Source of the DNA: Candidatus Hydrothermus pacificus
GTDB taxonomy: Bacteria > Hydrothermota > Hydrothermia > Hydrothermales > Hydrothermaceae
DNA length: 64,000 nucleotides
Direction of reading: 5' to 3'
Assembly: GCA_002011615.1 (NCBI GenBank)
Contig: MTOH01000016.1
Coordinates: 1,267 to 65,266, forward strand
In this document: one piece after another, positions 6,202 through 57,849 of the stretch
Layout: every line of letters starts with the position of its first letter
Numbering within the stretch: position 1 is the stretch's first letter
Program-made: the position numbers and the translations under genes
Notes under the pieces: generated by a model
The model's input: only the letters and a program-made list of their open reading frames with translations
What the model was told of the DNA's origin: nothing
Databases searched by the model: none

Positions 6202-7735
6202 TCCTTATTTTTTTCTTCACAAGAGGATTCACGTTAATATCTTTAAGTATTATATCATAGGTTGTAATTGAGAAAGGAATATAGGGATTCCCTTCAAAAA
6301 AATTAAAGGAACTCATGTTTCCCAGAACACCTTTTATTTTACCCCACATATCTTCAAAAGATGAAAAATTAATTTCAAGATTTTTAATCTCTCTCTTATT
6401 TCCATTTTTATAGAGTATAAACCCTTTTGTTATTTCAAAAGAAAGAGGAGACCTTATTTGAATATCTTCAATAATCAATATACTGTCTCTTAAAAGATTC
6501 TTTTCAGGCAAATCCTTTACAAAAACATTTGTCATAAACGGAAAGGGTTTTGAATAAAGAGCTGACCTTGCATGTCCATTTGAATTAGAAAATTCGCTCA
6601 CCGGTTCTCTCTTTAAAAGAAAATTTTTTAAAATACCCCTTTCAATCAGATTGACATGCTCTGACCTGACACCTTCATCATCATATAACAAAAATCCTGC
6701 AAGAGGTTTTTTATTAAAATAATCAATATCAGGTTTATCATAAACATCTATGTCAGCCGTGATTTTTCTACCTATTTTCTGAATAAAACTCTTTAAGTTA
6801 TCATAATTATCCTTACTTAAAAAAAATGTATTTTTTACAAGGTTTGAAATAAATTTTGCAGAGGATATACCACCCAGAACAACATCACCGTTGTATCCCT
6901 TTATCTCATTCCCATTCACATGCTTTTTAAAATCTTCAATAAAACTAATTGCCTCCTGCAAACATCTTTTACCAAGAATTTCATCAATCTCATATCCAAA
7001 AAATTCCCTTGAGCTACTGTAACGTTTACCTTCCTTATCAAAAGCGGACACAGATACTCTCATGAGAAAATAACTACCTGTATCTTCAATTTCAGTACCT
7101 TCGGTATTAACAATAATTCGTTTTTTTCTTATAAAATAAAAGGATAGTTTACCCGAATAAAGGAATTCAACCTTTAAGACTCTGGAATAAAATTTATCCA
7201 TAATCTCTTTTATTCTCTTATAATTAACCTTTTTCATCTCTCTTTTCTTGTAGTTCACAGGTTTTTCTTTTGAGAATGATGCGGATGTATCTTCGGGTAA
7301 AAAAGCGGTTTTACTCTTTTCTCTTTTATAATAATCACTAACTGCATTTTTATAGCCAAAATCAGTCATTTTCCATAAGGTATGCCTTATTGCATACTCT
7401 TCATCTTCAAGGGGAAACTTTGGATATGCAAGATTTTTAAAATCATAACGAGTTGAAAATCCGGAGCCAAAGAAATTAGAACTCACCCCGTCTTCCCTGT
7501 AATCACCAACCCTAACTTCAACATAGGGTGCCCTTGAAACGGTTTTTCTCTCCTCACAGAGCCCTGCTTTTCCATATTCTAAATAATAAAGCTCTATTTC
7601 AGTAATCCTGTAAAGAATAAAATAGGGTTTTACTTCTGAATTTCTTTTTAGATACTCAAAATTTCTGTGCAGTTCCTTTTTTAGAAAGTCTTTTGTTCCT
7701 GAGAAAATTAAAATAGAGATTAATAATGTGTTCAT
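6194..7735 (-). CDS. TldD/PmbA (TldE-like) family protein lacking the HExxxH motif, predicted exported
   Basis: Same layout as the neighbouring TldD homologue (SNGHARSA, KPLAGFLLYDDEGVRSEHVNLIERGILKNFLL) but no HExxxH; N-terminal hydrophobic segment. Confidence 0.75.
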   Translation of the reverse strand: MNTLLISILIFSGTKDFLKKELHRNFEYLKRNSEVKPYFILYRITEIELYYLEYGKAGLCEERKTVSRAPYVEVRVGDYREDGVSSNFFGSGFSTRYDFKNLAYPKFPLEDEEYAIRHTLWKMTDFGYKNAVSDYYKREKSKTAFLPEDTSASFSKEKPVNYKKREMKKVNYKRIKEIMDKFYSRVLKVEFLYSGKLSFYFIRKKRIIVNTEGTEIEDTGSYFLMRVSVSAFDKEGKRYSSSREFFGYEIDEILGKRCLQEAISFIEDFKKHVNGNEIKGYNGDVVLGGISSAKFISNLVKNTFFLSKDNYDNLKSFIQKIGRKITADIDVYDKPDIDYFNKKPLAGFLLYDDEGVRSEHVNLIERGILKNFLLKREPVSEFSNSNGHARSALYSKPFPFMTNVFVKDLPEKNLLRDSILIIEDIQIRSPLSFEITKGFILYKNGNKREIKNLEINFSSFEDMWGKIKGVLGNMSSFNFFEGNPYIPFSITTYDIILKDINVNPLVKKKIRND

Positions 7736-9393
7736 GGCGGTGGTATAATCGGGGGTTTTAAATAACTCTTTTCCCTTTTTGCAAGTTCCATCTCTCTTAT
7801 AAGCACTGATGGAGAAACTATACCAACGGGTATGCTTCCAGACTCTGCACCACAGAATCCATTATAACATCCAGGGTCATCACCAAGTGCAACTATATTT
7901 TTAAGAGAAATAAGCGGGGTTCCTCCAAATCTTATGCCTCTTATATACTCCTCTTTCCCGTTCACCCATAACCTCTTGGCAACTATTGGTTCTGATTCAA
8001 AAGTTTCAAGTGTAAACTTTGTTGTCTGGGTTCTACCCTCTGTAATCTTTTCAATAATTATACCGTATTCTTTACCCTGTTTTTTACACTCCTGTATTAA
8101 AAGTTTTTTAAGAGAGTCCACCGGTAGAGGATTGAGATTTTCAATTATCAAATTCCCCTGCCTCGGCACAGGTGGATTAAAGGAGTTTAAAAGGTAAAAA
8201 GGAGATGCTCTACCATGACCATTAGAATTTTTAAACTGAAGCAGAGGTCTTCTTGAAAGCAAAAACCTTTTTAAGACACCCCTTTCAATTAAATTAACCT
8301 TTTTTGCCTTTATACCTTCTTCATCAAACCTGTAGAACCCACTTAAAGGAAATTTTTTAAAATATTTTAAATCAGGAGCATCATAGACATTTAGAAAAGC
8401 AGGTAAAATTCTTTCACCTAATTTTTCTTTAAAAATTTCTCCTTCAATTCTTGAACGCTGTCTGTGCCCTTCAAGCCTGTGCCCTAAAATTTCATGAAAG
8501 AAAACACCTGCTCCCGGGGAAACTATTAAAACAGGTCCTTTATAGGACTCCTGAATTTCACAACTCTTCATTTTTCTCACATTCTTGATTATATTTAAGG
8601 CACATCTTATAATAGAGTCAGAAGAGGGCATATCTTTTTCTTCAAAGAAGAAAAAACTTTCAAAATCAGATACCCACATCCCGTCAATTGCCTTTGTTTC
8701 TGCATAAACATATATATAATTGTAGTTCCGATTCTCAAATATCTTTCTGCCCTCTGTATCAACAAAATATTTCCTCTGTTCTATTGTGTAGAAAGCCACA
8801 CCCGATGAAAGTATATCAGGTTCTTTTTTAAAAATCTTTGATACATCCTTTAAAATTTCTCTAACTTTTTTCAGGTCCACAGGTTTATACTTTCCTGTGT
8901 CAATAAAAGTTTCAGCCTTTTCACGGGTAAAAGAAGGCAGCGTGTCTTCTGAAAACTCCTGAATTTTTTTAGCCTTTTTATCAAAATACCTTATCCTTGC
9001 AATCTGATAACTCCTTAAAGAAAATTTTGAAAGCAGTTTTTTCCATAACTTATTTTCCTCACAGGGTATGTTCATGTGAATTAAAATTTGCCTTATCTCG
9101 CTTTCTTCTTCACCCGGAAAATAAAGCTCATCAGGATAGATTGAGCTGTCAAAACTATAATCCCCCACCCTTATCCTTGAACTAAAATAGCCTTTTTTAT
9201 TCTCAAAATCCTTTGTAATAGAACCAAGGGATGCCTCAAGTTCTTTTCTCTGTTCAAACACAACCTGATACTCCATATAATAGGGATTAACATCTTTTTT
9301 TCTTAAAATTTCAAAATTGGATTCCAACTCCATTTCAAGAAGGTTCAAAAACTTTGCAGGAGACAGACATAAAATTACAAAAATCAGTTTCAT
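7732..9393 (-). CDS. TldD-like metallopeptidase, predicted exported
   Basis: FFHEILGHRLEGHRQRSRIEGEIF (HExxxH), GFYRFDEEGIKAKKVNLIERGVLKRFLL; N-terminal hydrophobic segment. Confidence 0.85.
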   Translation of the reverse strand: MKLIFVILCLSPAKFLNLLEMELESNFEILRKKDVNPYYMEYQVVFEQRKELEASLGSITKDFENKKGYFSSRIRVGDYSFDSSIYPDELYFPGEEESEIRQILIHMNIPCEENKLWKKLLSKFSLRSYQIARIRYFDKKAKKIQEFSEDTLPSFTREKAETFIDTGKYKPVDLKKVREILKDVSKIFKKEPDILSSGVAFYTIEQRKYFVDTEGRKIFENRNYNYIYVYAETKAIDGMWVSDFESFFFFEEKDMPSSDSIIRCALNIIKNVRKMKSCEIQESYKGPVLIVSPGAGVFFHEILGHRLEGHRQRSRIEGEIFKEKLGERILPAFLNVYDAPDLKYFKKFPLSGFYRFDEEGIKAKKVNLIERGVLKRFLLSRRPLLQFKNSNGHGRASPFYLLNSFNPPVPRQGNLIIENLNPLPVDSLKKLLIQECKKQGKEYGIIIEKITEGRTQTTKFTLETFESEPIVAKRLWVNGKEEYIRGIRFGGTPLISLKNIVALGDDPGCYNGFCGAESGSIPVGIVSPSVLIREMELAKREKSYLKPPIIPPP

Positions 9394-37890: not shown

Positions 37891-39399
37891 TTAAAGGAGG
37901 GGGAAGTTTTTTAAGTCAATTTTCTTAAATTCAAATTCACCGGGTCTTTTTATTAAAAATATCTTTATTAAATTTTCCTTTTTCTTTTTGTCCATGAAAA
38001 TAAATTTTTTTAAATTATTTTTTTCATGGTCAGGAATAAATTTTTCTATTCTTTTAAAAATTTTTTTAAACTCTTTATAAAATTCTTTATCAATTATTCC
38101 CATATTTTTTGAAATTTCAATTTCTTTTTTAAGTCCAAGAAGAACAGATTTACCATGGGAAATTTTATAACCAGAACCTGCCTCAATTGCATGCCCTACT
38201 GTATGACCGAGGTTCAAAAGCATTCGCTCACCCTTAATTTCAAAGGGGTCTTTTTCTACAATTTTTAACTTCATTCTTCCTGTAATTGGGACCCATTTAA
38301 GATAGGTTTTTAAATCAGGATTTGTGAGTTTATCAAAGTCTTTTTTAAATTTTTTATAAATTTTTTCATCAAAAAGGGCTGTTTTAAAAATTTCTGCAAA
38401 TCCATCAATTATATGTTCTTTTTTTAAAGTGACAAAAATTCTCGGGTCACAGAACACAATTTCAGGAAATTTGAAGGTCCCTATTATGTTTTTTGCAATA
38501 AAATTAACTGCGTTTTTTCCTCCAAGATGCGCATCAACTGCGGATAAAATCGTTGTTGGAACTAAAAATAATCTCATTCCCCTCATATAAACAGAACTTA
38601 TAAAACCTGACAGGTCACCTATCACACCCCCTCCGATTCCAAGAATCACCGAATTTCTATCTGCTTTTTTATCAAGCAGAATTTTAAATATCTTCTGTGC
38701 ATATTTAAAGGATTTTGCCCTTTCACCTTCAGGAACAATAATGGTTTCAAATCTGGATAAATCATAAAAATGTGATATTAAATTTTTTATTTTTTCATGG
38801 GTTATGATAAAAATTCTTGAATCTTCTTTTTTGATTTCTTCAAAAAATTCTTTTATATTACCTATATAAAATTTATGGGGTTTTTCACATATTCTTTTGT
38901 AATATTTAAAATCAATCTTTGATAAAATCTGCAGGATAATTTCTTCAGGGGATTTGTTTCCGTCAATTTTAAACTTTATCCTCTCATAGATTTTTTTCCT
39001 CTTATTATAGAGAATTTCAACATCATCCAGTTTTTTCAAAACAGGTCTTAAAAAACTCCTTTTTATTCTCTTTTTGAGCTCTTCAAGAGTAACATCAAGG
39101 TAAAAGGCATAATTTTCATTTTTATTTATAAAATCAAGAATGTTTTTATTTAAAACCGCACCTCCTCCCAGGGAAATAACACAATTTTTTCTCTCCTTAA
39201 TTTCATTAAAAATTTCATATTCAATTTCTCTGAATTTCCTTTCTCCGTATTTTTTAAATATTTCTTCAATTTTCATCTTTTTTCTCCTCTCAATAATTTC
39301 ATCAAGGTCATAAAATTTTAAACTTAAGAATTTTGCAAGTTTTTTGCCAACTGTTGTTTTTCCACAACCTGTCATACCGCAGAGAAAAATTCTTTTCAT
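37891..39399 (-). CDS. bifunctional shikimate kinase / 3-dehydroquinate synthase (AroK-AroB fusion)
   Basis: N-term FLCGMTGCGKTTVGKKLA...DLDEIIE; C-term GGGVIGDLSGFISSVYMRGMRLFLVPTTILSAVDAHLGGKNAVN. Confidence 0.95.
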   Translation of the reverse strand: MKRIFLCGMTGCGKTTVGKKLAKFLSLKFYDLDEIIERRKKMKIEEIFKKYGERKFREIEYEIFNEIKERKNCVISLGGGAVLNKNILDFINKNENYAFYLDVTLEELKKRIKRSFLRPVLKKLDDVEILYNKRKKIYERIKFKIDGNKSPEEIILQILSKIDFKYYKRICEKPHKFYIGNIKEFFEEIKKEDSRIFIITHEKIKNLISHFYDLSRFETIIVPEGERAKSFKYAQKIFKILLDKKADRNSVILGIGGGVIGDLSGFISSVYMRGMRLFLVPTTILSAVDAHLGGKNAVNFIAKNIIGTFKFPEIVFCDPRIFVTLKKEHIIDGFAEIFKTALFDEKIYKKFKKDFDKLTNPDLKTYLKWVPITGRMKLKIVEKDPFEIKGERMLLNLGHTVGHAIEAGSGYKISHGKSVLLGLKKEIEISKNMGIIDKEFYKEFKKIFKRIEKFIPDHEKNNLKKFIFMDKKKKENLIKIFLIKRPGEFEFKKIDLKNFPLL

Positions 39400-46063: not shown

Positions 46064-47197
46064 TCATACCCATCTTATTTTTTGAAGATAATTTTTATAA
46101 CCTTCTCTTATTTCATAAAAATTATCGCTTCCGAATTTCTGTAAAATTGCATCACACAGAATAAGCCCTAAAAACACTTCTGCAATTACAGATACTGCAG
46201 GAACCACACATACATCGCTCCTTAAATACTTTGTTTTTTCCTCTTTTTTTTCTTTTAGATTAACCGAATTAACAGGTTTTAACTGTGTTGGAATCGGTTT
46301 TATATAAAGTTTTACCTTTATCGGGTTTCCATCTGTCATTCCTCCTTCAATCCCTCCCTGATAATTTGTTTTTCTTTTTATCTTATTACCTTCAATAAAA
46401 ATTTCATCAACCGTTTCTTTACCGTATTTTTTTGAGATCTCAATTGCCGAACCTATTTCAATTCCTTTAACCGATGGTATTGAAAGCATAACTCCTGCAA
46501 TTTTTAAATCAATCCTTTTTTCAAAATGAACATAGGAGCCGAGTCCGGGAGGAACATTAAAGGCATAAACACATACAGCACCACCCAGGGTTTCTTTTTT
46601 TTCATAAGCCCTTTTTAAAATTTCTTGTGCCTCTTTATCTTTTTCTTTATCTATAAAGTAAAAATCAGAACTGTTTCTTATTTTTTCAAACTCCTCATCG
46701 TATTCCAGAATTTCTTTTTCCTCATCCTCCATATCTCCTATTCTTTGAGTGAATCCAAAAAGTTTTACTCCCAATGAAATTGGCAATTCGGAGGCAATTC
46801 CACCGAGTAAGGTTCTCATGGCTGTTTCCCTTGCCGAAGCCCTTTCCATAACAGGTCTTATATCGTTGAAACCATATTTTAAAAATCCTGAAAAATCTGC
46901 ATGTCCTGGTCTTGGAACATAAACGGGTTTAATGGGTTTTGTTTTTGATTTATTTTCAATTTCGCATGCTATCGGAGCACCTGTTGTTATTCCATTTTCA
47001 ACGCCTGATGTTATTTTAAATTCATCTTCTTCAAGTTTTTGCCTTTTACTTCTTCCTTTAAATTTACTCCTTCTTTTAAGGTAATCTTTTAACCTTTCAT
47101 AACTTATTTTTAAATTTGCAGGCATTCCTTCCAGAATTCCTGTTAATTTCTCTCCGTGCGATTCACCTGCGGTTATAAGTTTTAAAACTTCAAGCAT
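46064..47197 (-). CDS. aroC: chorismate synthase
   Basis: LITAGESHGEKLTGILEGMPANL, SGVENGITTGAPIA, RPGHADFSGFLKYGFNDIRPVMERASARETA; start moved to MLEVLKL. Confidence 0.97.
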   Translation of the reverse strand: MLEVLKLITAGESHGEKLTGILEGMPANLKISYERLKDYLKRRSKFKGRSKRQKLEEDEFKITSGVENGITTGAPIACEIENKSKTKPIKPVYVPRPGHADFSGFLKYGFNDIRPVMERASARETAMRTLLGGIASELPISLGVKLFGFTQRIGDMEDEEKEILEYDEEFEKIRNSSDFYFIDKEKDKEAQEILKRAYEKKETLGGAVCVYAFNVPPGLGSYVHFEKRIDLKIAGVMLSIPSVKGIEIGSAIEISKKYGKETVDEIFIEGNKIKRKTNYQGGIEGGMTDGNPIKVKLYIKPIPTQLKPVNSVNLKEKKEEKTKYLRSDVCVVPAVSVIAEVFLGLILCDAILQKFGSDNFYEIREGYKNYLQKIRWV

Positions 47198-47963
47198 TTT
47201 CACCTTCCATTGTTTTATTAAAGCAATTTTTAAAGGTATTTTCATCAAAATCAGAGAACCAGATTTTTCCTGCATAAATTGCCTGATACAAAAGCATCTC
47301 TTTTCCATCAACACCTTCAAGCCCTCTTTTTTTTCCTTCTTTTAAAAACGGCGTTTCCTTTCCGTATTGAAGGTCAACCAGAAAAGATTTTTTAATGTAA
47401 TCCATATTTAAAGGAGGTAAATTTCCCTTCCATCCGCAGGGAGTTGCATTTATTATTAAATCGGCATTTTCAAGTATTTCTTCTATTTCATAACATTTAT
47501 AACTTTTTACCTCACATCCCATTATTTTATCTTTCTTATTTCTGCTTAAAAAAAGAATGTTTTTTACTCCCTTATTTTTAAAATAAAAGGCACAGGTTTT
47601 TGCGGCTCCACCCGTTCCAAGAATTATAATATTTTTAAAATTTGCCTTAATTTCATCCATCAACTTTGCAAATCCGTAAAAATCAGTGTTATAGGCTTTT
47701 ACTTTTTCCTCAATTAAAAGAGTATTTGCATTTTTTGTATTCATAACAACCTCATCAAAAATTTCTGCGTATTTAAGAATTTTCTCTTTCCATGGAGTGG
47801 TAATGTTCAATCCCCTGTAATTTTTTAAATCAACATTCTTTTCAGGTGATAATTCAATTTTTTCATAAAAGGCATTTATATTTTTCCTTTTAAAATAAAG
47901 ATTCCAGAAAACAGGTGAAAGAGAGTGTCTCAGAGGAAAGCCTATTATTCCTAACTTAATCAT
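47190..47963 (-). CDS. aroE: shikimate dehydrogenase
   Basis: GIIGFPLRHSLSPVFWNLYF, GLNITTPWKEKIL, NTDFYGFAKLM, LGTGGAAKTCAF. Confidence 0.96.
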   Translation of the reverse strand: MIKLGIIGFPLRHSLSPVFWNLYFKRKNINAFYEKIELSPEKNVDLKNYRGLNITTPWKEKILKYAEIFDEVVMNTKNANTLLIEEKVKAYNTDFYGFAKLMDEIKANFKNIIILGTGGAAKTCAFYFKNKGVKNILFLSRNKKDKIMGCEVKSYKCYEIEEILENADLIINATPCGWKGNLPPLNMDYIKKSFLVDLQYGKETPFLKEGKKRGLEGVDGKEMLLYQAIYAGKIWFSDFDENTFKNCFNKTMEGENA

Positions 47964-49218
47964 AAATCTTTTTTACCTCCTCAAAAAAACACGGGTATGA
48001 AATTTCTACCCATTTTTCTCCTTCAACTTCGGTTTCTCCTTCTGCAAGAAGCCCTGCACATACAGAAAGCATAACCATTCTATGGTCCTTATAGGTAAAA
48101 ACCCTTGTTCCCTTTAATTTACTTTTTCCCTTTATAACCCATCCATCTTCTATTTCCTCAATTTCTGCACCCATTTTTTTTAAAATCCTTGTGGTATTTC
48201 TTAACCTGTCGCTTTCTTTAACCCTTAATTCCTTTGCCCCTTTTATAATGCTTTCACCTTCTGCAAAACAGCATACAAGTGCGAGTAAAGGGAGTTCATC
48301 AATCATTTTTGAGCATTCTTTAAATCCTATCTTTACTGGTTTTAATTCAGAAGTTCTAACATAAATATCACCCTCGGGCTCAGGCTCTTTTATCTTTAAA
48401 TCAATTTCAATCCTTGCCCCCATTTCTTTTAAAATCTTCATATAAAAGGTTCTTGTTTTGTTTAAATTAACATCTTTAATAAGGATTTCTGACTCAGGAT
48501 GTAAAATTCCCAGGGTAATCCAGAAACTGGCAGATGAAAAATCTCCTGGAACCTTTAATGAAAAGTTATTTATTCTTGATGGGAAAACCCTTATCCTGTC
48601 TTCTTCACATTCTATTTTTGCTCCAAGATATTTTAAAATCCTTTCAGTATGGTCCCTTGTTTTCAGAATTTCCTCAAATTCACTTTCAACCTTGGATAAA
48701 AAGGAAGCAAGTATCAATGAAGATTTTACCTGTGCGGATGCAACAGGAATTTTATATTTTATACCCTTTAATTTTTTACCCTTTATAAAAACAGGGAGTT
48801 TTGTATCGTTTTCTCTTCCGTATACAAGAGCACCCATTTTCCTCAAAGGCTCTATAACCCTTTTCATCGGTCTTTTCCTCAGGGAAAAATCGCCGTCAAG
48901 GAAAAAATTAAAGGAAAGAGCAGAACATATCCCGGTTCCCAGTCTCGCGGTTGTTCCTGAGTTTCCGCAGTATAAAATCTTTTCAGGTTCTTTTAAACCT
49001 CTGTTTTCAATTACAATACTTTCTTTATCTTTTTTTGATTCTATACCCAGATTCCTGACAAAATAAAGCGTTCTTTTAACATCTTTTGAATTAAGAAGAT
49101 TTTTTATTTTATATTTTCCTTGCTCAAGCAGGGTGAAAAACAAAAGCCTGTGGGATATTGATTTATCAGGGGGCAGAGCTATTTTAATTCTTATTTTTTC
49201 AGGTTTTTTTATTTTCAT
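47956..49218 (-). CDS. aroA: 3-phosphoshikimate 1-carboxyvinyltransferase (EPSP synthase)
   Basis: LPPDKSISHRLLFFTLL, YCGNSGTTARLGTGI, RVKESDRLRNT, YKDHRMVMLSVCAGL. Confidence 0.97.
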   Translation of the reverse strand: MKIKKPEKIRIKIALPPDKSISHRLLFFTLLEQGKYKIKNLLNSKDVKRTLYFVRNLGIESKKDKESIVIENRGLKEPEKILYCGNSGTTARLGTGICSALSFNFFLDGDFSLRKRPMKRVIEPLRKMGALVYGRENDTKLPVFIKGKKLKGIKYKIPVASAQVKSSLILASFLSKVESEFEEILKTRDHTERILKYLGAKIECEEDRIRVFPSRINNFSLKVPGDFSSASFWITLGILHPESEILIKDVNLNKTRTFYMKILKEMGARIEIDLKIKEPEPEGDIYVRTSELKPVKIGFKECSKMIDELPLLALVCCFAEGESIIKGAKELRVKESDRLRNTTRILKKMGAEIEEIEDGWVIKGKSKLKGTRVFTYKDHRMVMLSVCAGLLAEGETEVEGEKWVEISYPCFFEEVKKIYD

Positions 49219-49996
49219 TCAGAACCTCCAGAAGTTTTTCTCTTTTATCTATTTTCAGGATTTCCACGATTTTATTTTTTATATTTTCAAAATTTTTTAT
49301 AATGTTATACCTGTTTGTGAGGATTACATCTGCAAACATTTCAGGATTTTGATTTGCTATTCTTGTAAAGGATTTAAAACCAGGACCTTCAAAATTTTTG
49401 TTTCTGGAATTTTTGAGAAACAAAAAGGATATGAGATAGGGCAGGTGTGAGGTCAGGGCAAGCATTCTGTCATGATATTCAGGTTCTATTAATAACGGTA
49501 TTGCTCCGATTTTCCTTACAAAATTTTCAGAAAACTCAATGAGTTTTTTATCTCCTCTGACATCACAGAGGAAAAACATTTTATTTTCAAAAAGATTTTC
49601 ATCCCAGGCATAAGGGGCAGTTTTTTCATTCCCTGCAAGAGGATGACCGCCTGTGAATTTCAGATTCAAATTTTTTGCTCTTTCGCATATAATTTTTTTT
49701 GTGCTACCCGTATCAATCACAATTCCCTTATATTTCATTCTCTCAAGCTCTTCAAGAGTTTTTATTATTTCAAGAACAGGGGTTGCAATTATTAAGATTT
49801 TGCATTTTAGAATTTCCTGAAACCTGGTGGTTTTAAAGTCCAGAAAGCGGGCTTTCTCAAGAATCCTGCTATCCGTATCGCAGCCGTAAATTTTTATTCC
49901 CTTCATCCTTTTTCTAAGGGCAAGTGCAATTGAACCTCCTATCTGTCCCACACCTATTATTCCTATCTTTTTAAAGTCTGCAAAGTCTGATTCCAT
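49199..49996 (-). CDS. tyrA: prephenate dehydrogenase
   Basis: IGIIGVGQIGGSIALALRKRM, VIDTGSTKKIICERA, GGHPLAGNEKTAPYAWDENLF. Confidence 0.93.
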   Translation of the reverse strand: MESDFADFKKIGIIGVGQIGGSIALALRKRMKGIKIYGCDTDSRILEKARFLDFKTTRFQEILKCKILIIATPVLEIIKTLEELERMKYKGIVIDTGSTKKIICERAKNLNLKFTGGHPLAGNEKTAPYAWDENLFENKMFFLCDVRGDKKLIEFSENFVRKIGAIPLLIEPEYHDRMLALTSHLPYLISFLFLKNSRNKNFEGPGFKSFTRIANQNPEMFADVILTNRYNIIKNFENIKNKIVEILKIDKREKLLEVLNENKKT

Positions 49997-51000
49997 TTTA
50001 TTTTAAGGGCTTCTGCCAGTTCTTTTAATTCTCTTACAAGTATTTCAAATTCCTTGAAATTAAGGGATTGGGGACCATCTGAAAGGGCTTTTTTGGGCTC
50101 TGGATGAACCTCAACAATTATTCCATCTGTTCCTGTAACAAGGGCGGATTTTGCAAGAGGAATTATCAAATCCCTTCTACCTGAAGCATGGGAAGGGTCT
50201 GCAATTATGGGAAGATGAGAAATTTCTTTAACGAGGGGAATACATGAAATATCAAAGGTATTCCTTGTATATTTTTCAAATGTCCTTATTCCCCTTTCAC
50301 AGAGAACAACATCCTGATTTCCCTCATTCAATATGTATTCTGCGGATAAAAGAAATTCTTCAATTGTTGAGTTCATTCCTCTTTTCAAAAGCACGGGTCT
50401 GGATGACCTTCCTGCTATTTTCAGCAGTTCAAAGTTCTGCATATTCCTTGCACCTATTTGCAAGACATCCACATATTTTTCAAATAAATCAATGTATTCA
50501 GGTGAAATTATTTCTGTGACAACAGGTAAACCGGTTTTTTTCTTCGCTTCAAAGAGATATTCAAGACCTTTAACTCCAAGTCCCTGGAATGAGTAGGGAG
50601 AAGTTCTTGGTTTAAAGGCTCCTCCTCTGAGCATATGTGCTCCTTTTTCTCTTAAAAATTCTGCAATTTCAACAATCATCTCCCTTGATTCAACAGAGCA
50701 GGGACCGGCAATCAGGGTAAATCCTTTGCCAATCTGAACACCATTAACCCTTACAACTGTATTTTTCTCTTTAAAATCTCTTGAAACAAGTTTAAAAGGG
50801 TGGGGTTCTTTAACAACTGTTTCAATTTCTTTAAATCTTTTCAGTTTCTGAACAGGGAATTTTTTTGTATCACCAAGAACACAGGCAGTAAATTTTCCGT
50901 TCTTTTTGGAAATTCTTATTCTGTAACCCAGTGTCTCCATTTTCTGAATTATTTTTGCAACATTCTTTATATTGACCTCTTCTTTAAAAATTATGAGCAT
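49963..51000 (-). CDS. aroF: 3-deoxy-7-phosphoheptulonate synthase (type I-beta with N-terminal ferredoxin-like domain)
   Basis: FTLIAGPCSVESREM, LRGGAFKPRTSPYSFQGLGVKGLEYL, ADPSHASGRRDLI, VEVHPEPKKALSDGPQSL. Confidence 0.96.
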   Translation of the reverse strand: MLIIFKEEVNIKNVAKIIQKMETLGYRIRISKKNGKFTACVLGDTKKFPVQKLKRFKEIETVVKEPHPFKLVSRDFKEKNTVVRVNGVQIGKGFTLIAGPCSVESREMIVEIAEFLREKGAHMLRGGAFKPRTSPYSFQGLGVKGLEYLFEAKKKTGLPVVTEIISPEYIDLFEKYVDVLQIGARNMQNFELLKIAGRSSRPVLLKRGMNSTIEEFLLSAEYILNEGNQDVVLCERGIRTFEKYTRNTFDISCIPLVKEISHLPIIADPSHASGRRDLIIPLAKSALVTGTDGIIVEVHPEPKKALSDGPQSLNFKEFEILVRELKELAEALKIKWNQTLQTLKR

Positions 51001-51003
51001 CTT

Positions 51004-51375
51004 TCACCTCCTTTGAAGGTCAGGTCTTAATTTTTTTGCCTCACCTATATATATGTGGTTAACGCTTTTGTTTTTTGAATAGTAAAGAATAAGCGCTCTT
51101 ATTGTTCCTGGAAGTGAATCCTTATACACAGGTTCCTGAGAACACAGAACAGGCACATCCTTAAAACCCATCTCTCTCATTATTCTACCGGGAGAAACTG
51201 ATTTTAAATCATCGGTTATTGTAAAAAAGGCACAAACAACATCTTCGGGATTTATACCATTTTTAGCCATCATCTCATTCACCATACTTTTACCCTTTTC
51301 AATGATTTCATTCCTATCATCCTTCTGAACTTTTATCGCACCTCTTACACCCTTTATCCACCATCCGTCTTCCAT
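51004..51375 (-). CDS. aroH: chorismate mutase, AroH class
   Basis: KGVRGAIKV, CAFFTITDDLKSVSPGRIMREMG, VPVLCSQEP, HIYIGEAKKLRPDL. Confidence 0.93.
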   Translation of the reverse strand: MEDGWWIKGVRGAIKVQKDDRNEIIEKGKSMVNEMMAKNGINPEDVVCAFFTITDDLKSVSPGRIMREMGFKDVPVLCSQEPVYKDSLPGTIRALILYYSKNKSVNHIYIGEAKKLRPDLQRR

Positions 51376-52114
51376 TTTTTAATCCTCCTTTTAAAACATT
51401 TAAATGCTTTTTTATGAATTTATTTAAATCTCTTCCTTTTAAAATCCTTCTTGCTATTTCAGAACCAATTATAACTCCATCAATTAAATTTAAAATTTTT
51501 TTAACACTTTGAGGATTTTTAACCCCAAAACCGAGAAAAATTTTCCTGTCAGTTAAGTTTCTGAATTCTTTTAATTTCCTGCGGGTATATTCCGGGAAAT
51601 CCTCTCTTGCACCTGTTGTCCCCTTAACAGAGACAAAATAGATAAATAAGTTTGCAATCTCAGCTATTTTTAAAAATCTTTCAACAGAGGTTGAAGGGCT
51701 TGCAAGGGGCACAAAATCCAAATTGCATTTTTTAAACAGGGGCAGGTAATATCCTGCCTCTTCAAGGGGCAGGTCGGGTATAACAACTCCTGCCACTCCT
51801 TTATTCCCGGCCTTTTTAAGAAATTTCTCAAACCCGTAATTTAAAATGGGGTTTAAATAACTCATTATAATAAAAGGTTTTTTATTCCTTATTCTTTCAA
51901 TGGAGGAAAAAATAAAGTCAATGTCAACTTTTTCTTTTAAAGCAGTTTCATGAGCAATTTGCAGGTCAGAGCCATCAGCAAGTGGGTCTGAAAAGGGTAT
52001 TCCTATCTCAACATAATCGCCGTATTCAGAAAGTAATTTCAGATATTTTAAAAACCTTTTTCTGTCAGGAAAACCTGCTGTTATATAGGGAACAAAATAT
52101 TTTTTATTTTCCAT
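51317..52114 (-). CDS. trpA: tryptophan synthase alpha chain
   Basis: PYITAGFPDRKRFLKYL, VEIGIPFSDPLADGSDLQIAHETAL, VVIPDLPLEEA. Confidence 0.95.
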   Translation of the reverse strand: MENKKYFVPYITAGFPDRKRFLKYLKLLSEYGDYVEIGIPFSDPLADGSDLQIAHETALKEKVDIDFIFSSIERIRNKKPFIIMSYLNPILNYGFEKFLKKAGNKGVAGVVIPDLPLEEAGYYLPLFKKCNLDFVPLASPSTSVERFLKIAEIANLFIYFVSVKGTTGAREDFPEYTRRKLKEFRNLTDRKIFLGFGVKNPQSVKKILNLIDGVIIGSEIARRILKGRDLNKFIKKHLNVLKGGLKNGRRMVDKGCKRCDKSSEG

Positions 52115-53264
52115 TTTTATACCTCCAGTAAATATTTAAATCCTTTTCTCCTCTTCCTGAAAGACATACGAGAATTCTTTTGCCATTCATATTTTTTGAA
52201 ATTTTCCTTGCAAGGGCAAGGGCATGAGATGGTTCAAGAGCTGGAATAATACCCTCTTCCTCTGCACATTCTTCAAATGCAGAAATTGCTTCATCGTCAA
52301 AAACAGGAAAGTATTTTACCCTTTTTACTTGCTTTAAAAAACTGTGTTCAGGACCCACACCCGGGTAATCAAGCCCGGGCGCGATTGAATGGGTTTCTCT
52401 GACCTGACCCTTTTCATCCTGCAAGATATACGTTAAGGCACCGTGAAGAACTCCTTTTTTACCAAAGGAAAGGGTTGCTGATGTTTTGTCCCTGTCTGTG
52501 CCACCACCCTCTGCCCCCAGAATTTTAACCTCTTTATCTTTTACAAAGGCTGAAAAGATTCCTATGGAATTTGAGCCTCCTCCAACACAGGCAATAACAT
52601 AATCCGGAAGAGAACCACATCTTTTAATAAATTGTGTTCTTGCTTCTTTTCCTATTATGGATTGAAAATATTTTACAATTTCCGGGTAGGGTTTTGGACC
52701 AACGCAGGAGCCCAGAAGATAATGGGAGTTTTCAAAGTTTGTAATCCAGTCCCTTATTGCTTCATTTATTGCATCCTTTAAGGTTTTTGAACCTTTATCA
52801 ACTTCCACAACATCTGCACCGAGAAGTTTCATCTTTAAAACATTTTCCCTTTGCCTCTCAGCATCAATTTTACCCATATATATTGTGCATCCAATTCCTT
52901 CCTTTGCACATACTGCTGATGTTGCAAAACCGTGCTGACCAGCTCCTGTTTCGGCAATTATTCTTTTTTTATGCATAAATCTTGCAAGCAGAATTTGACC
53001 AATCGCATTGTTTATCTTATGAGCTCCTGTATGACACAAATCCTCCCTTTTAAAGTAAATTTCATTACCCCATTTTTTTGAAAGATTTTTTGCATGATAA
53101 AGGGGAGTTGGTCTTCCTGCATATTCTTTCAGGTAAATTTTGAATTTCTCTTTATATCTTTTGCTTTTTTTGAATTCTTTAAATGCCCTTTCAAGTTCAA
53201 AAAGTGAAGGCACAAGTGTCTCAGGCACATATATGCCTCCAAAGATTCCATATTCATGTCTCAT
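52104..53264 (-). CDS. trpB: tryptophan synthase beta chain
   Basis: GRPTPLYHAKNLSKKWGNEIYFKREDLCHTGAHKINNAIGQILLA, ETGAGQHGFATSA, GGGSNSIGIF. Confidence 0.98.
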   Translation of the reverse strand: MRHEYGIFGGIYVPETLVPSLFELERAFKEFKKSKRYKEKFKIYLKEYAGRPTPLYHAKNLSKKWGNEIYFKREDLCHTGAHKINNAIGQILLARFMHKKRIIAETGAGQHGFATSAVCAKEGIGCTIYMGKIDAERQRENVLKMKLLGADVVEVDKGSKTLKDAINEAIRDWITNFENSHYLLGSCVGPKPYPEIVKYFQSIIGKEARTQFIKRCGSLPDYVIACVGGGSNSIGIFSAFVKDKEVKILGAEGGGTDRDKTSATLSFGKKGVLHGALTYILQDEKGQVRETHSIAPGLDYPGVGPEHSFLKQVKRVKYFPVFDDEAISAFEECAEEEGIIPALEPSHALALARKISKNMNGKRILVCLSGRGEKDLNIYWRYKNGK

Positions 53265-53859
53265 TTTCAGCCTCCTTGATTTTTTCAACAATTTCAAAAA
53301 TCAAATTTTTATCTTTTATCCCGGGTTCTATCTCAACACCTCTTGAGATGTCAACTCCAAAGGGTCTTATTTTTTTGACAAAACCCTTTATGTTCTTTCT
53401 GTTCAGGTTTCCTGCGAATATCAGCGGGATTGAAGAAAACTCTTTTTTTATATCCAGTGCCAGTTCTTCAGGAGCATGGTCAAACCCTGATTTTTTGAAA
53501 TCAAAGAGAAGAAAATCAAAACCTATCATTTCAAACTGTTTCTCAGGATAGAAAATTCCTCTTATTTTCAAAAAATCCGAAAGGTTCTGATTTAAATCGT
53601 GATAGACCTGAATACCACTCAAACAAAGCTCCATGCACTTATCCTTTATGATGCTTTCATCCATTTCAGGGAAAATTCCTATTTTTGTAATAGGTGGCAT
53701 ATCTTTTATCATGCTTTTTAAATCGTCAAAGGAGATAAATCTCGGAGAGTTCCTGAAGAAAACAAATCCGACTGCATTTATACCCGCATTATAACAGGTA
53801 ATTGCATCCTGAATCCTTTTTATTCCGCATATTTTTATAAAGGTCTTTATTTTTTCCAT
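53254..53859 (-). CDS. trpF: phosphoribosylanthranilate isomerase
   Basis: IKICGIKRIQDAITCYNAGINAVGFVFFRNSPRFIS; FAGNLNRKNI; FGVDISRGVE. Confidence 0.93.
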   Translation of the reverse strand: MEKIKTFIKICGIKRIQDAITCYNAGINAVGFVFFRNSPRFISFDDLKSMIKDMPPITKIGIFPEMDESIIKDKCMELCLSGIQVYHDLNQNLSDFLKIRGIFYPEKQFEMIGFDFLLFDFKKSGFDHAPEELALDIKKEFSSIPLIFAGNLNRKNIKGFVKKIRPFGVDISRGVEIEPGIKDKNLIFEIVEKIKEAENET

Positions 53860-54584
53860 TCTCTAATCCATTCTTTTATAATTTTTTCAGGATTTTTCTC
53901 GAGCATAAGCCTTGTTCCGACCAGAAAACCATCGTATCCAAGAGATTTTATCTCTTTTATGGTTCCCAGGTTCTGTATACCACTTTCTGCTATTTTTATC
54001 ACCCTATCAGGAATATACATTCTCAGTTTTTTAAAAAGGGTTAAGTCTATCTCAAGGGTGGCAAGGTTTCTGGAATTTATTCCTATAATTTCTGCTCCTG
54101 CTCTCAATGATTTTTCAATTTCATAAGCAGAATGGCATTCAACCAGAGCAAAAAGCCCGAGTGTCCTGGATAGCTTTATAAGTTCTTTTAACCTTTCATA
54201 TTCAAGGATTTTTGCAATCAATAGGATACCATCAGCTCCCGCATTCTGGCTTTCAATCACCTGTTTTTTTGAAATTATAAAATCCTTTCTCAAAACTCCT
54301 ATTTTAAATTCTTTTTTAATTGTCTCTATATCCTTTATATTCCCACCAAAAAAGAAAGGTTCTGTTACCACAGAAATGAGATTCGCTCCCCCTTCTATGT
54401 ATTTTTGAACTTTTTCAAGAATGTTGAGCTCTTCTGAAATCACTCCTCTTGAAGGGGATTTTCTTTTTATCTCGGTTATAAAAAGGGGAGGTGAAGTTAA
54501 AAATTGAGGGAATTCTGGAGAGGGTTCTAAATCTTTTATACCTTTAACCCTTTCAACGGTTTTTTTAATTATCTTTGTTAACAT
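53847..54584 (-). CDS. trpC: indole-3-glycerol-phosphate synthase
   Basis: FITEIKRKSPSRGVIS, VVTEPFFFGG, VLRKDFIISKKQVIESQNAGADGILLIA, GINSRNLATLEID. Confidence 0.95.
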   Translation of the reverse strand: MLTKIIKKTVERVKGIKDLEPSPEFPQFLTSPPLFITEIKRKSPSRGVISEELNILEKVQKYIEGGANLISVVTEPFFFGGNIKDIETIKKEFKIGVLRKDFIISKKQVIESQNAGADGILLIAKILEYERLKELIKLSRTLGLFALVECHSAYEIEKSLRAGAEIIGINSRNLATLEIDLTLFKKLRMYIPDRVIKIAESGIQNLGTIKEIKSLGYDGFLVGTRLMLEKNPEKIIKEWIREWKK

Positions 54585-55578
54585 TTTCCCTCCTTAACCT
54601 CTGAATTAACTCCCGAGGTTTACCTGATTTTAAAACTTCAAGGGCTCTCTCAATCCCCTGTTTTAAATCTTTAACTTTCTGAAGAGCGAGGTATGCAATT
54701 GCAGAGTTAAGGGCAATAACACTTCTATCAGGCTCTCTGTGGCTGGAAAATAGCTCAAAAATCCTCTGCGCACTCTCCTGAGAAGATGAAACTTTAAGTT
54801 CATCCTCACCGGGAATAGAAAGTTTAAACTGAGATGTATCAATCTGAATTGTTTTATCAGGGTCTTCAGAACTATTTATATAAACCGTATCACCGGGAAT
54901 AGCCTCATCAAATCCAGCTTTTGATGTGTAAAAAAGAATTTTCCTGTTTAAAATATTAGCAGCTTTTGATAGTTTTAAGAGTATATCAGCATCAGGAACT
55001 CCTATTATCTGTGTCTCTGGAAAACAGGGATTTGTTAAAGGACCTAAAAGATTAAATATTGTTCTTATTCCAAGATTTTTTCTTATCTCAGCAACCCTCT
55101 TCATTGAAGGATGATAAAGAGGAGCAAATATAAAGGCAAAGTTGAATTTTTTTAAGTAGAGAAAAATCTCTTCAGGGTTTAATTTTGTTTTTATTCCAAG
55201 AGCCTCAAGAACATCTGCACTCCCGCTTTTACTCGAAATTCCCTTATTTCCGTGTTTTGCCACTTTAACTCCATCTGATGCAAGTAAAAGAGAAACAGCG
55301 GTTGATATGTTCCATGTATTTTTGCCATCCCCACCTGTTCCACAGGTATCAATATCAGGTCTTAAATCACCCAGTTCAGGCTTTACAGCTTTTTCAAGTA
55401 TTCCTTCCACAAAACCCGCAATTTCCTCTGGTGATTCTCCTTTTACCCTTAAAGCAACAAGAAGACCTGCTATCTGTTCGCCGGGCACTTCTCTGTCAAC
55501 AATGTTGAGCATCAGAGTTTTTGAAAGCCTCTCATCAATTTTTTCCTTTCTTGCTATCTTTTCAATCAACTCTTTCAT
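54565..55578 (-). CDS. trpD: anthranilate phosphoribosyltransferase
   Basis: DTCGTGGDGKNTWNISTAVSLLLASDGVKVAKHGNKGISSKSGSADVLEALG. Confidence 0.97.
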   Translation of the reverse strand: MKELIEKIARKEKIDERLSKTLMLNIVDREVPGEQIAGLLVALRVKGESPEEIAGFVEGILEKAVKPELGDLRPDIDTCGTGGDGKNTWNISTAVSLLLASDGVKVAKHGNKGISSKSGSADVLEALGIKTKLNPEEIFLYLKKFNFAFIFAPLYHPSMKRVAEIRKNLGIRTIFNLLGPLTNPCFPETQIIGVPDADILLKLSKAANILNRKILFYTSKAGFDEAIPGDTVYINSSEDPDKTIQIDTSQFKLSIPGEDELKVSSSQESAQRIFELFSSHREPDRSVIALNSAIAYLALQKVKDLKQGIERALEVLKSGKPRELIQRLRRENVNKDN

Positions 55579-55580
55579 TT

Positions 55581-56147
55581 TTATACCTCCAGAAAATTCT
55601 CAATTAATTTTTTTCCAGATTTTGTCCCGAAGGACTCGGGATGGAATTGAACTCCTTCGACCTTAAAATTTCTCATTCTTATACCCATTATTTCTCCATC
55701 CTTTGTAAACGCTGAAATTTCAAAAATCTCTGGCAGATTTGCCTCATCAATGATAAGGGAATGATATCTTGTTGCATAGAAAGGTGAATCAATGTTTGTA
55801 TAAATACCTTTTCCATCATGATATATTTCACATATCTTGCCGTGAACAACATTTTTTGCTTTTTTTATTTCAACACCGAATGCATATGCAATTGCCTGAT
55901 GTCCCAAACATATACCAAAAATGGGTATGCTCTTATAAAATTCTTTGATAAGGTTTATACATATCCCTGCATTTTTGGGATGCCCCGGTCCGGGTGATAG
56001 AAATATAAAATCAGGGGAAAGTTTTTTAACATCTTCAATACCAATTTCATCGTTCCTTTTTACAACTGTCCTGCAACCTGTCTCAAGAAGGTACTGGTAT
56101 ATGTTGTAAACAAAAGAATCGTAGTTGTCTATGAGAAGAACCTTCAT
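55581..56147 (-). CDS. trpG: anthranilate synthase glutamine amidotransferase component
   Basis: LLIDNYDSFVYNIYQYL, SPGPGHPKNAGI, GICLGHQAIAYAFG, GVQFHPES; start moved to MKVLLIDNYDSF. Confidence 0.95.
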   Translation of the reverse strand: MKVLLIDNYDSFVYNIYQYLLETGCRTVVKRNDEIGIEDVKKLSPDFIFLSPGPGHPKNAGICINLIKEFYKSIPIFGICLGHQAIAYAFGVEIKKAKNVVHGKICEIYHDGKGIYTNIDSPFYATRYHSLIIDEANLPEIFEISAFTKDGEIMGIRMRNFKVEGVQFHPESFGTKSGKKLIENFLEV

Positions 56148-56148
56148 T

Positions 56149-57480
56149 TCACACCTCCTCTGATAATAAAATCGCCCTTTTAAGGGCTTCACCTTTATTA
56201 TGACATTCTTCCCATTCTTTCTCGGGCAATGAGTCATGAACAATTCCTGCTCCTGCCTGATAGAAAAACTCTTTATCTCTCATAAAGATTGTTCTTATGA
56301 GTATTGCCTGATCCATATTGCCCTTTTCATCAAAATATCCGACAGCACCTGCATAGGGACCTCTTCTTGCGTCCTCAACCTCTTCTATTAACTCCATTGC
56401 TCTCACCTTTGGTGCTCCTGTCACGGTTCCTGCCGGGAAACAGGATTTTAAAAGTTCAAAAATGGATATTTTTTTATCTATCTTTGCTCTAACATAGGTG
56501 ACAAGATGCATCACATGAGAAAACCTTTCAACAACTCTGAATTTATCCACCTCAACGGTTCCGGGAATCGCAACTTTTCCGATATCGTTTCTTGCAAGGT
56601 CAACAAGCATAAGATGCTCGGCATTTTCTTTCTCATCATTTAAAAGTTCCTCTTCCATTTTCCTGTTTTTCCTTTCGTCTTCAAAAACAGGTCTTGTTCC
56701 TGCTATTGGACATGTAAGTATATTATTCCCCTCTTTTCTCACCAGCACTTCAGGTGAAGAACCTATTATCTTATATTCATCAAAATCAAGGTAAAAGAGA
56801 TAGGGCGAGGGGTTTAAAAATCGCAGTGCCCTGTAGATTTTAAAAGGTTCAACATCAACCCTGCCCTTAAATCTCATTGACATAACACATTGGAATATCT
56901 CTCCATTTCTAATCATGGTTTTTAAGTATCTGACTTTTTTTAAGAAATCTTCCTTTTTCTCAAGACAAAAAGGTCCTTCAACTCTAAACCTTCTAATATC
57001 CTCTTTAATTCTCTCTCTTTCAAGACATTCTTTTATCTGTTTCAAAAGATATTTGCTTTCTTCTTCATCCCTGTGAACCACCTGAACAGAGTGTTTCAAA
57101 TGGTCAAAAACAAGTAAGAATTCCGGAACCACATAAAGGGCATCGGGTATTTCAAAGGTCTTTTCATTTTTATCAGGTATATTCTCTATTGTTCTCACAG
57201 CATCATAACCCGTATATCCGACTATACCACCTGTAAATCTTAAATCCAGGTCTCTATCTTTCTTTGTTATTGAATATTCTTTTTCAAGTTCATGCCAGAG
57301 CCCTGTCTTTGAATCCAGCTTTTCAAACACTATCTTTTTACCCGATGAAAATCCTATGAAGCTGTATCTTCCAAGAGTTTTACCACCCAGAACACTTTCC
57401 AGCAGGAAAACAGGCTTAAAGTTTTTCAGCTTTAGAAAGGCTGAAACCGGAGTCTCCACATCTGCAATTATTCTTTTCAT
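56149..57480 (-). CDS. trpE: anthranilate synthase component I
   Basis: LFYLDFDEYKIIGSSPEVLVR, CPIAGTRP, LVDLARNDIGKVA, PAGTVTGAPKVRAMELIEE. Confidence 0.96.
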   Translation of the reverse strand: MKRIIADVETPVSAFLKLKNFKPVFLLESVLGGKTLGRYSFIGFSSGKKIVFEKLDSKTGLWHELEKEYSITKKDRDLDLRFTGGIVGYTGYDAVRTIENIPDKNEKTFEIPDALYVVPEFLLVFDHLKHSVQVVHRDEEESKYLLKQIKECLERERIKEDIRRFRVEGPFCLEKKEDFLKKVRYLKTMIRNGEIFQCVMSMRFKGRVDVEPFKIYRALRFLNPSPYLFYLDFDEYKIIGSSPEVLVRKEGNNILTCPIAGTRPVFEDERKNRKMEEELLNDEKENAEHLMLVDLARNDIGKVAIPGTVEVDKFRVVERFSHVMHLVTYVRAKIDKKISIFELLKSCFPAGTVTGAPKVRAMELIEEVEDARRGPYAGAVGYFDEKGNMDQAILIRTIFMRDKEFFYQAGAGIVHDSLPEKEWEECHNKGEALKRAILLSEEV

Positions 57481-57490
57481 AATTACCTCC

Positions 57491-57523
57491 AAAATAAAAA
57501 GCCCCCACCTTGAAGGTGGGGGC
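57491..57523 (-). terminator. proximal attenuator terminator upstream of trpE
   Basis: Minus strand GCCCCCACCT-TCA-AGGTGGGGGC followed by TTTTTATTTT. Confidence 0.93.
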
Positions 57524-57547
57524 TTCGGGTTCGGGCTTAATCAGGGG

Positions 57548-57625
57548 TTAACCCATAATGCCCGGGCCCCCACCTCTTCTGATAAACCAGTAATAATAAA
57601 GAGGTAAGGACCCGGGCATCATCAT
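57548..57625 (-). CDS. proximal leader peptide MMMPGSLPLYYYWFIRRGGGPGIMG
   Basis: SD AAGGAGAG upstream, ATG-ATG-ATG start, YYYWF codon run, stop before the terminator. Confidence 0.88.
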   Translation of the reverse strand: MMMPGSLPLYYYWFIRRGGGPGIMG

Positions 57626-57660: not shown

Positions 57661-57690
57661 AATTAAAAACCCCCACTTTAAAGTGGGGGT
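57661..57690 (-). terminator. distal attenuator terminator
   Basis: ACCCCCACTTTAAAGTGGGGGT palindrome (57669-57690) followed on minus strand by TTTTAATT. Confidence 0.92.
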
Positions 57691-57715
57691 CTGGGTTTTC
57701 GGGTTTCGGGCGGGG

Positions 57716-57790
57716 TTAAATTTCTACACCCAGACCCCCGCTCTTTCTAAAATACCAGTAATATATTTTCAGGAGTCTGAGTGTTTTCAT
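57716..57790 (-). CDS. distal leader peptide MKTLRLLKIYYWYFRKSGGLGVEI
   Basis: ATG 57790, run of Ile-Tyr-Tyr-Trp-Tyr-Phe codons, TAA at 57716-57718; SD weak. Confidence 0.85.
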   Translation of the reverse strand: MKTLRLLKIYYWYFRKSGGLGVEI

Positions 57791-57819
57791 ATTTTTAACC
57801 CCAAAAATTTAAAAAGATA

Positions 57820-57849
57820 ATTTTAAAGCAAAAATGTTTTTTTTGTCAA
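57820..57849 (-). promoter_or_regulatory. sigma70-type promoter for the trp/aro operon
   Basis: Minus strand TTGACA (57844-57849), 18-bp spacer, TAAAAT (57820-57825), about 30 nt before distal leader ATG. Confidence 0.72.

Follow-up and report, generated by a model that had tools for sequence, protein, structure and literature searches.

Within the 64,000-nucleotide stretch from Candidatus Hydrothermus pacificus that we analysed (hereafter the window), 13 genes of aromatic amino acid biosynthesis lie on the minus strand, overlapping or abutting, in the order trpEGDCFBA-aroH-DAHP synthase-tyrA-aroA-aroE-aroC. This unit gathers the Trp branch, the Tyr branch and much of the common pathway, and from its gene content its products would be chorismate, Trp and Tyr. 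A shikimate kinase/3-dehydroquinate synthase fusion is encoded apart from the aromatic operon, at 37891-39399 on the minus strand. The genome, whose completeness is rated at 95%, gave no hit for prephenate dehydratase (PF00800), and the same search was positive in 14 of 14 controls. Possibly the organism lacks the Phe branch and is a Phe auxotroph, or this branch uses another, unrecognised enzyme.

Ahead of the operon, in the gap between divergent genes, two paralogous attenuators occupy the interval from a promoter-like site to trpE. This position means that neither terminator can mark the end of a gene lying upstream. Attenuator 1 (57790-57667, minus strand) is the promoter-proximal member of the pair and consists of a 24-codon leader, MKTLRLLKIYYWYFRKSGGLGVEI, followed by a complete set of 1:2, 2:3 and 3:4 pairings. 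Its paralogue, attenuator 2 (57625-57498, minus strand), with the leader MMMPGSLPLYYYWFIRRGGGPGIMG, is placed between attenuator 1 and the trpE start codon (ATG at 57480), and its leader starts about 40 nt past terminator 1. Both intrinsic terminators precede the first structural gene, and the Shine-Dalgarno (SD) sequence of trpE, GGAGGT (57490-57485), follows immediately 3' of terminator 2. The promoter-like site, TTGACA-18-TAAAAT, lies upstream of both leaders, is the sole minus-strand promoter candidate shortly upstream of leader 1, and would start the transcript near 57812. Both leader ORFs have a start codon, a stop codon and an SD-like site, and both are predicted to be translated.

Table 1 Coordinates of the aromatic operon and of the regulatory features ahead of it, with the basis of each assignment
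Feature	Position	Strand	Basis or remark
Sigma70-like promoter candidate TTGACA-18-TAAAAT	57820..57849	-	Consensus match alone, 11/12
Leader ORF 1, MKTLRLLKIYYWYFRKSGGLGVEI	57716..57790	-	Weak SD-like GGGG 8 nt 5' of ATG
Attenuator 1 segment 1, ACACTCAGACTCC	57772..57784	-	Folding, shuffles, covariation
Control codons 1, Tyr10 Tyr11 Trp12 Tyr13 Phe14	57749..57763	-	Sequence and masked folding
Attenuator 1 segment 2, GGGGGTCTGGGTGT	57726..57739	-	Within leader ORF 1; partner is segment 1 or 3
Attenuator 1 segment 3, ACCCAGACCCCC	57685..57696	-	Perfectly complementary to segment 2 over 12 nt; shares bases with terminator 5' arm
Terminator 1 (3:4)	57667..57692	-	11 bp and U-tract
Leader ORF 2, MMMPGSLPLYYYWFIRRGGGPGIMG	57548..57625	-	25 codons; SD AGGAG upstream
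Attenuator 2 segment 1	57599..57622	-	24 bp with 57578-57555
Control codons 2, Tyr10 Tyr11 Tyr12 Trp13 Phe14	57584..57598	-	Sequence and masked folding
Attenuator 2 segment 2	57555..57578	-	Part complementary to segment 3 is GAGGTGGGGGC (57576-57566)
Attenuator 2 segment 3 and terminator 2	57498..57526	-	13-pair stem and U-tract
trpE	56149..57480	-	Top NCBIfam match TIGR00564, slightly below cut-off; context trpEGDCFBA; first operon gene
trpG, trpD, trpC, trpF, trpB, trpA	51317..56147	-	Overlapping or abutting
aroH (chorismate mutase), DAHP synthase, tyrA, aroA (EPSP synthase), aroE, aroC	46064..51375	-	

Alternative pairings and their conservation between the copies

The preliminary description of this DNA had proposed a leader-peptide attenuator with four segments at 57661-57790 and had given no strand. 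The attenuator is present, every element described lies on the minus strand, and the ORF at 57790-57716 translates exactly as reported there. Segment 1 pairs with 57738-57726 (GGGGTCTGGGTGT) over 13 bp, two of them G-U, and GGGGGTCTGGGT (57739-57728) is the exact reverse complement of segment 3, with the Tyr-Tyr-Trp-Tyr-Phe codons between segments 1 and 2, all as claimed. The 3:4 terminator and its U-tract are also present, but the stem had been written as ACCCCCACTTT and AAAGTGGGGGT, which abut and leave no loop; in our folding, the actual stem is AGACCCCCACT/AGUGGGGGUUU, 11 bp closed by a UUAA loop. In both copies the antiterminator 2:3 is mutually exclusive with 1:2 and with 3:4, as seen from complementarity beyond that of shuffled sequences, from covariation and from the folding of partial transcripts.

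We scanned the 64 kb for mini-ORFs that have an intrinsic terminator and a block in which at least four of five residues are aromatic, and recovered only leader 1 and leader 2. This loose criterion gave 7 hits in total over 40 dinucleotide shuffles of the window, and five aromatic residues in five, Trp included, gave no hit in the same 40 shuffled windows. The pairings were assessed by holding each terminator fixed and shuffling the leader sequence 5000 times. For leader 1, 0 of 5000 shuffles matched the observed 1:2 (15 bp with G-U allowed) or 2:3 (12 bp) pairing; for leader 2, no shuffle matched the 24-bp 1:2 helix and 0.04% of the 5000 matched 2:3.

Comparison of the two copies shows that all 13 pairs of the 1:2 helix are kept, with compensatory changes on both sides in four pairs and a change on one side in four others, and that sliding the partner by 1-3 columns lowers whole-structure pairing from 93% to 34-66%. 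Comparison by hand also reveals two double changes in the terminator stem (A:U to G:C and U:A to C:G); MAFFT had aligned the terminator arms with an indel shift, and automatic pairing of the terminator helix is therefore understated. The peptides have diverged outside the aromatic block (TLRLL versus MPGSLP), and the block itself is kept. In this comparison of two sequences only, the pattern points to RNA pairing and aromatic codons, not the peptide, as the objects of selection. An assembly artefact was considered as the source of the second copy and rejected because the copies have diverged.

Ribosome position and the choice of structure

The preliminary description had named RNA folding as a check on the switch and had held that a stalled ribosome would free segment 2. 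In full-length equilibrium folding the 3:4 structure wins in every state, and the states are not told apart; a partial-transcript model was used in its place, with the transcript cut off at segment 3, the ribosome footprint masked codon by codon and E. coli trpL as the control. The final balance favours the 3:4 structure by about 5 kcal/mol in leader 1 at Tyr10-11 and by 7-8 kcal/mol in trpL. Since the terminator always wins at equilibrium, the switch would have to work through the kinetics of folding during transcription, like that of E. coli trp. Under masking, leader 1 behaves like the control, which is a 100% match to annotated trpL and has its 2:3 peak around the Trp codons when pairs spanning the ribosome are allowed.

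When the ribosome stalls in leader 1 at Tyr10, Tyr11 or Trp12, the probability of 2:3 is 0.93-1.00, in agreement with the earlier claim. For Tyr13 and Phe14 the outcome is model-dependent (0-0.33 with ribosome-spanning pairs allowed, 0.75-1.00 with them forbidden), because segment 1 has by then left the ribosome and can re-form 1:2. With the ribosome at the stop codon of this leader, segment 2 is blocked in the model. Leader 2 forms 2:3 with a probability of 0.97-0.98 at Tyr10-12 and partially, 0.43-0.97, at Trp13. A ribosome at its stop codon leaves segment 2 uncovered, with 2:3 at 0.78-0.98 with spanning pairs and 0 without them; thus, the second gate would need prompt ribosome release.

Both leaders lose 2:3 from codon 16 onward in masked folding, and in both, stalls upstream of the aromatic block would likewise permit it. 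The block therefore marks the downstream edge of a 2:3-permissive zone, with the Phe codons at that edge. From these models, Tyr is predicted to be the strongest signal and Trp the next, with Phe the least certain; the folding lends weak support to a sensitivity to Phe. The control codons YYWYF and YYYWF match the end products of the operon, Trp and Tyr, and the Phe branch is incomplete.

Taken with the aromatic operon directly downstream and the compensatory changes in 1:2, the trpL-like behaviour under masking supports a leader-peptide attenuator as the best reading of 57790-57667. As one of two paralogues in series, this attenuator is to be understood together with 57625-57498.

Leaders in other genomes and known attenuation systems

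We looked for comparable leaders in relatives and in other bacteria. trpE or trpB occurs in only a handful of the 147 genomes of the phylum, and trpE had no match in the closest relatives compared, the four genomes of the same order. Where trpE is present in the phylum, it mostly lies directly behind aroA, without a leader, and a comparable leader was not found in the stretches that we read from genomes with this arrangement. A distant genome of the phylum (G135, locus L071, 4459-4380, minus strand) carries the leader MSREKSYWWVFNKW, with the block SYWWVF, a 2:3 pairing and a terminator, ahead of trpB-trpA-DAHP synthase-trpE, so that the mixed-codon idea appears there in another gene order. 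Within the H. pacificus genome, no second such attenuator was found in the 30 of 86 TWYTWYTGGTWY-matching places that were read or in further scanned stretches, all seven places with four His codons were read and gave no attenuator of this kind, and the DNA of the region has only short matches elsewhere.

Outside the phylum, the nearest TrpE sequences that we found come from Halodesulfovibrio and a Desulfobacterales MAG. We surveyed 101 genomes of the order that holds the Halodesulfovibrio locus L009 and read 30 loci before an aroA'-type gene. Aromatic-rich leaders with terminators precede this gene in 25 of the 30 loci, and 22 of the 30 mix Phe, Tyr and Trp. Example leaders from this position include FYFWYWFS and NFYFWFFFSY (L007-L010, L085-L114).

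At the tyrA/trpE junction of the same order (L007-L010, L084, L115-L143), the long upstream ORF carries three or four consecutive Trp codons (WWW or WWWW) among its final 20 or so, and this tail is followed by a strong terminator before trpE in 20 of 30 loci; in L009 the ORF is TyrA (7018-7863). The end of the enzyme apparently also serves as leader peptide for a Trp-only attenuator within the supraoperon, which, together with the leader before the aroA'-type gene, suggests two-stage supraoperon control in the L009 order. Among the loci compared, a tandem of the same specificity was seen in the window only.

In anatomy and in modelled behaviour, the attenuators described here would belong to the E. 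coli trp type. They share with E. coli trpL (the Trp_leader type, Yanofsky) the 1:2/2:3/3:4 logic, control codons between segments 1 and 2, trpE downstream, and the same response to the same folding procedure. E. coli trpL differs in being a single attenuator with two Trp codons only and trp genes only, whereas two in series, with Tyr, Trp and Phe codons, stand here before a 13-gene chorismate, Trp and Tyr operon. A predicted attenuator also heads the Desulfovibrio vulgaris aroA'-aroB'-pheA-aroF-tyrA-[trp] supraoperon (PMC1173090 Table 7, Merino's predictions), and is alike in its place ahead of an aromatic supraoperon. That type of system differs in its single attenuator at the head, in its unrelated sequence and gene order, and in the apparent second, Trp-only attenuator inside the operon at tyrA/trpE.

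Serial sensing has been described in other forms. Some Firmicutes trp operons carry two or three serial T-box sensors of the same amino acid (PMC12452182), but these bind tRNA directly, without leader peptide or ribosome. Salmonella mgtCBR has tandem attenuators with two leader ORFs that act on one downstream operon, and there the signals, ATP and proline, are different (PMC3641672), whereas here two copies have the same specificity and each has its own terminator. Among the open-access papers searched, we found no description of mixed Tyr/Trp/Phe leaders or of same-specificity tandem leader-peptide attenuators. What is probably new here is that a leader-peptide attenuator is duplicated and both copies share one mixed aromatic specificity; mixed leaders themselves recur elsewhere.

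Proposed operation of the tandem leaders

We consider it highly probable that two tandem, paralogous leader-peptide transcription attenuators of the trp/his type control one aromatic supraoperon as gates in series. Most likely, both leaders lie on a single transcript and act one after the other, since no promoter-like site was found between leader 1 and leader 2 when the minus strand was searched for one. RNA polymerase would transcribe leader 1 from a single promoter. When charged Tyr-tRNA or Trp-tRNA is short, the ribosome would stall in YYWYF and hold segment 1, segment 2 would then pair with segment 3, and terminator 1 would be pre-empted. With ample charged tRNA, the ribosome would enter segment 2, allowing 3:4 to fold and transcription to stop; if leader 1 is left untranslated, 1:2 would form, with the same outcome through 3:4. 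Polymerase past terminator 1 would meet a second switch of like build with YYYWF, and only transcripts that clear both gates would reach trpEGDCFBA-aroH-DAHPS-tyrA-aroA-aroE-aroC. The operon would thus be transcribed only when aromatic amino acids run short, and the two serial gates would be expected to multiply attenuation, giving less leak and a steeper and wider response than one gate.

The paralogy of the copies also fits an arrangement in which one attenuator alone senses and the other, a superfluous or degenerating copy, serves as a partial terminator that is always on, and both the weak SD-like element of leader 1 and the unmasking of segment 2 by a stop-codon ribosome in leader 2 would agree with it. 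We regard this as unlikely, because both copies keep all four segments, a start codon, a Trp-containing aromatic block and a strong terminator, and the 1:2 pairing has survived changes in 8 of its 13 pairs, as it would not under decay. Somewhat less likely again is that the leaders sense a general slowdown of translation or one amino acid, such as Tyr, with the mixed composition incidental. Tyr codons do come first and dominate (YY.Y and YYY), the predicted effect drops for Phe, and the genome is possibly unable to make Phe; against this, both copies retain Trp, a rare residue, at the edge of the permissive zone, and blocks that mix F, Y and W are found again ahead of aromatic operons in the distant genome of the phylum and in the order containing Halodesulfovibrio.

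Control by a T-box, a TRAP-type system or a riboswitch, with the mini-ORFs there by chance, appears very improbable. Tandem T-boxes do occur in trp operons of Firmicutes (PMC12452182), but one tRNA was the sole Rfam match above the gathering cut-off in the whole window, in a search that included the Trp leader and T-box families, and the ORF geometry of both copies fits ribosome-mediated control. We give still less credence to ordinary terminators or inverted repeats without a regulatory role: the stems are GC-rich in an AT-rich genome, and short repeats resembling parts of the region are found elsewhere in it, but no upstream gene ends on the minus strand, and both the shuffle tests and the covariation argue against it.

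Beyond the serial attenuators themselves, we lean slightly towards a broader reading, in which the duplicated pan-aromatic attenuators form a multiplicative gate on the supraoperon, the codon order in the leader ranks Tyr > Trp > Phe, and, together with the leaders of the Halodesulfovibrio order, they represent a recurrent unnamed class. The system would offer a direct test of whether codon order ranks competing starvation signals in a leader peptide, and of whether two leader-peptide terminators multiply. If our reading is true, leader-peptide attenuation can read several amino acids and be doubled for sharper control, a sharpening by duplication that would parallel tandem T-boxes through a different chemistry. 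It would also extend ribosome-mediated attenuation to a sparsely studied phylum, and the wider survey suggests that mixed aromatic leaders are a common answer where one operon has several aromatic products.
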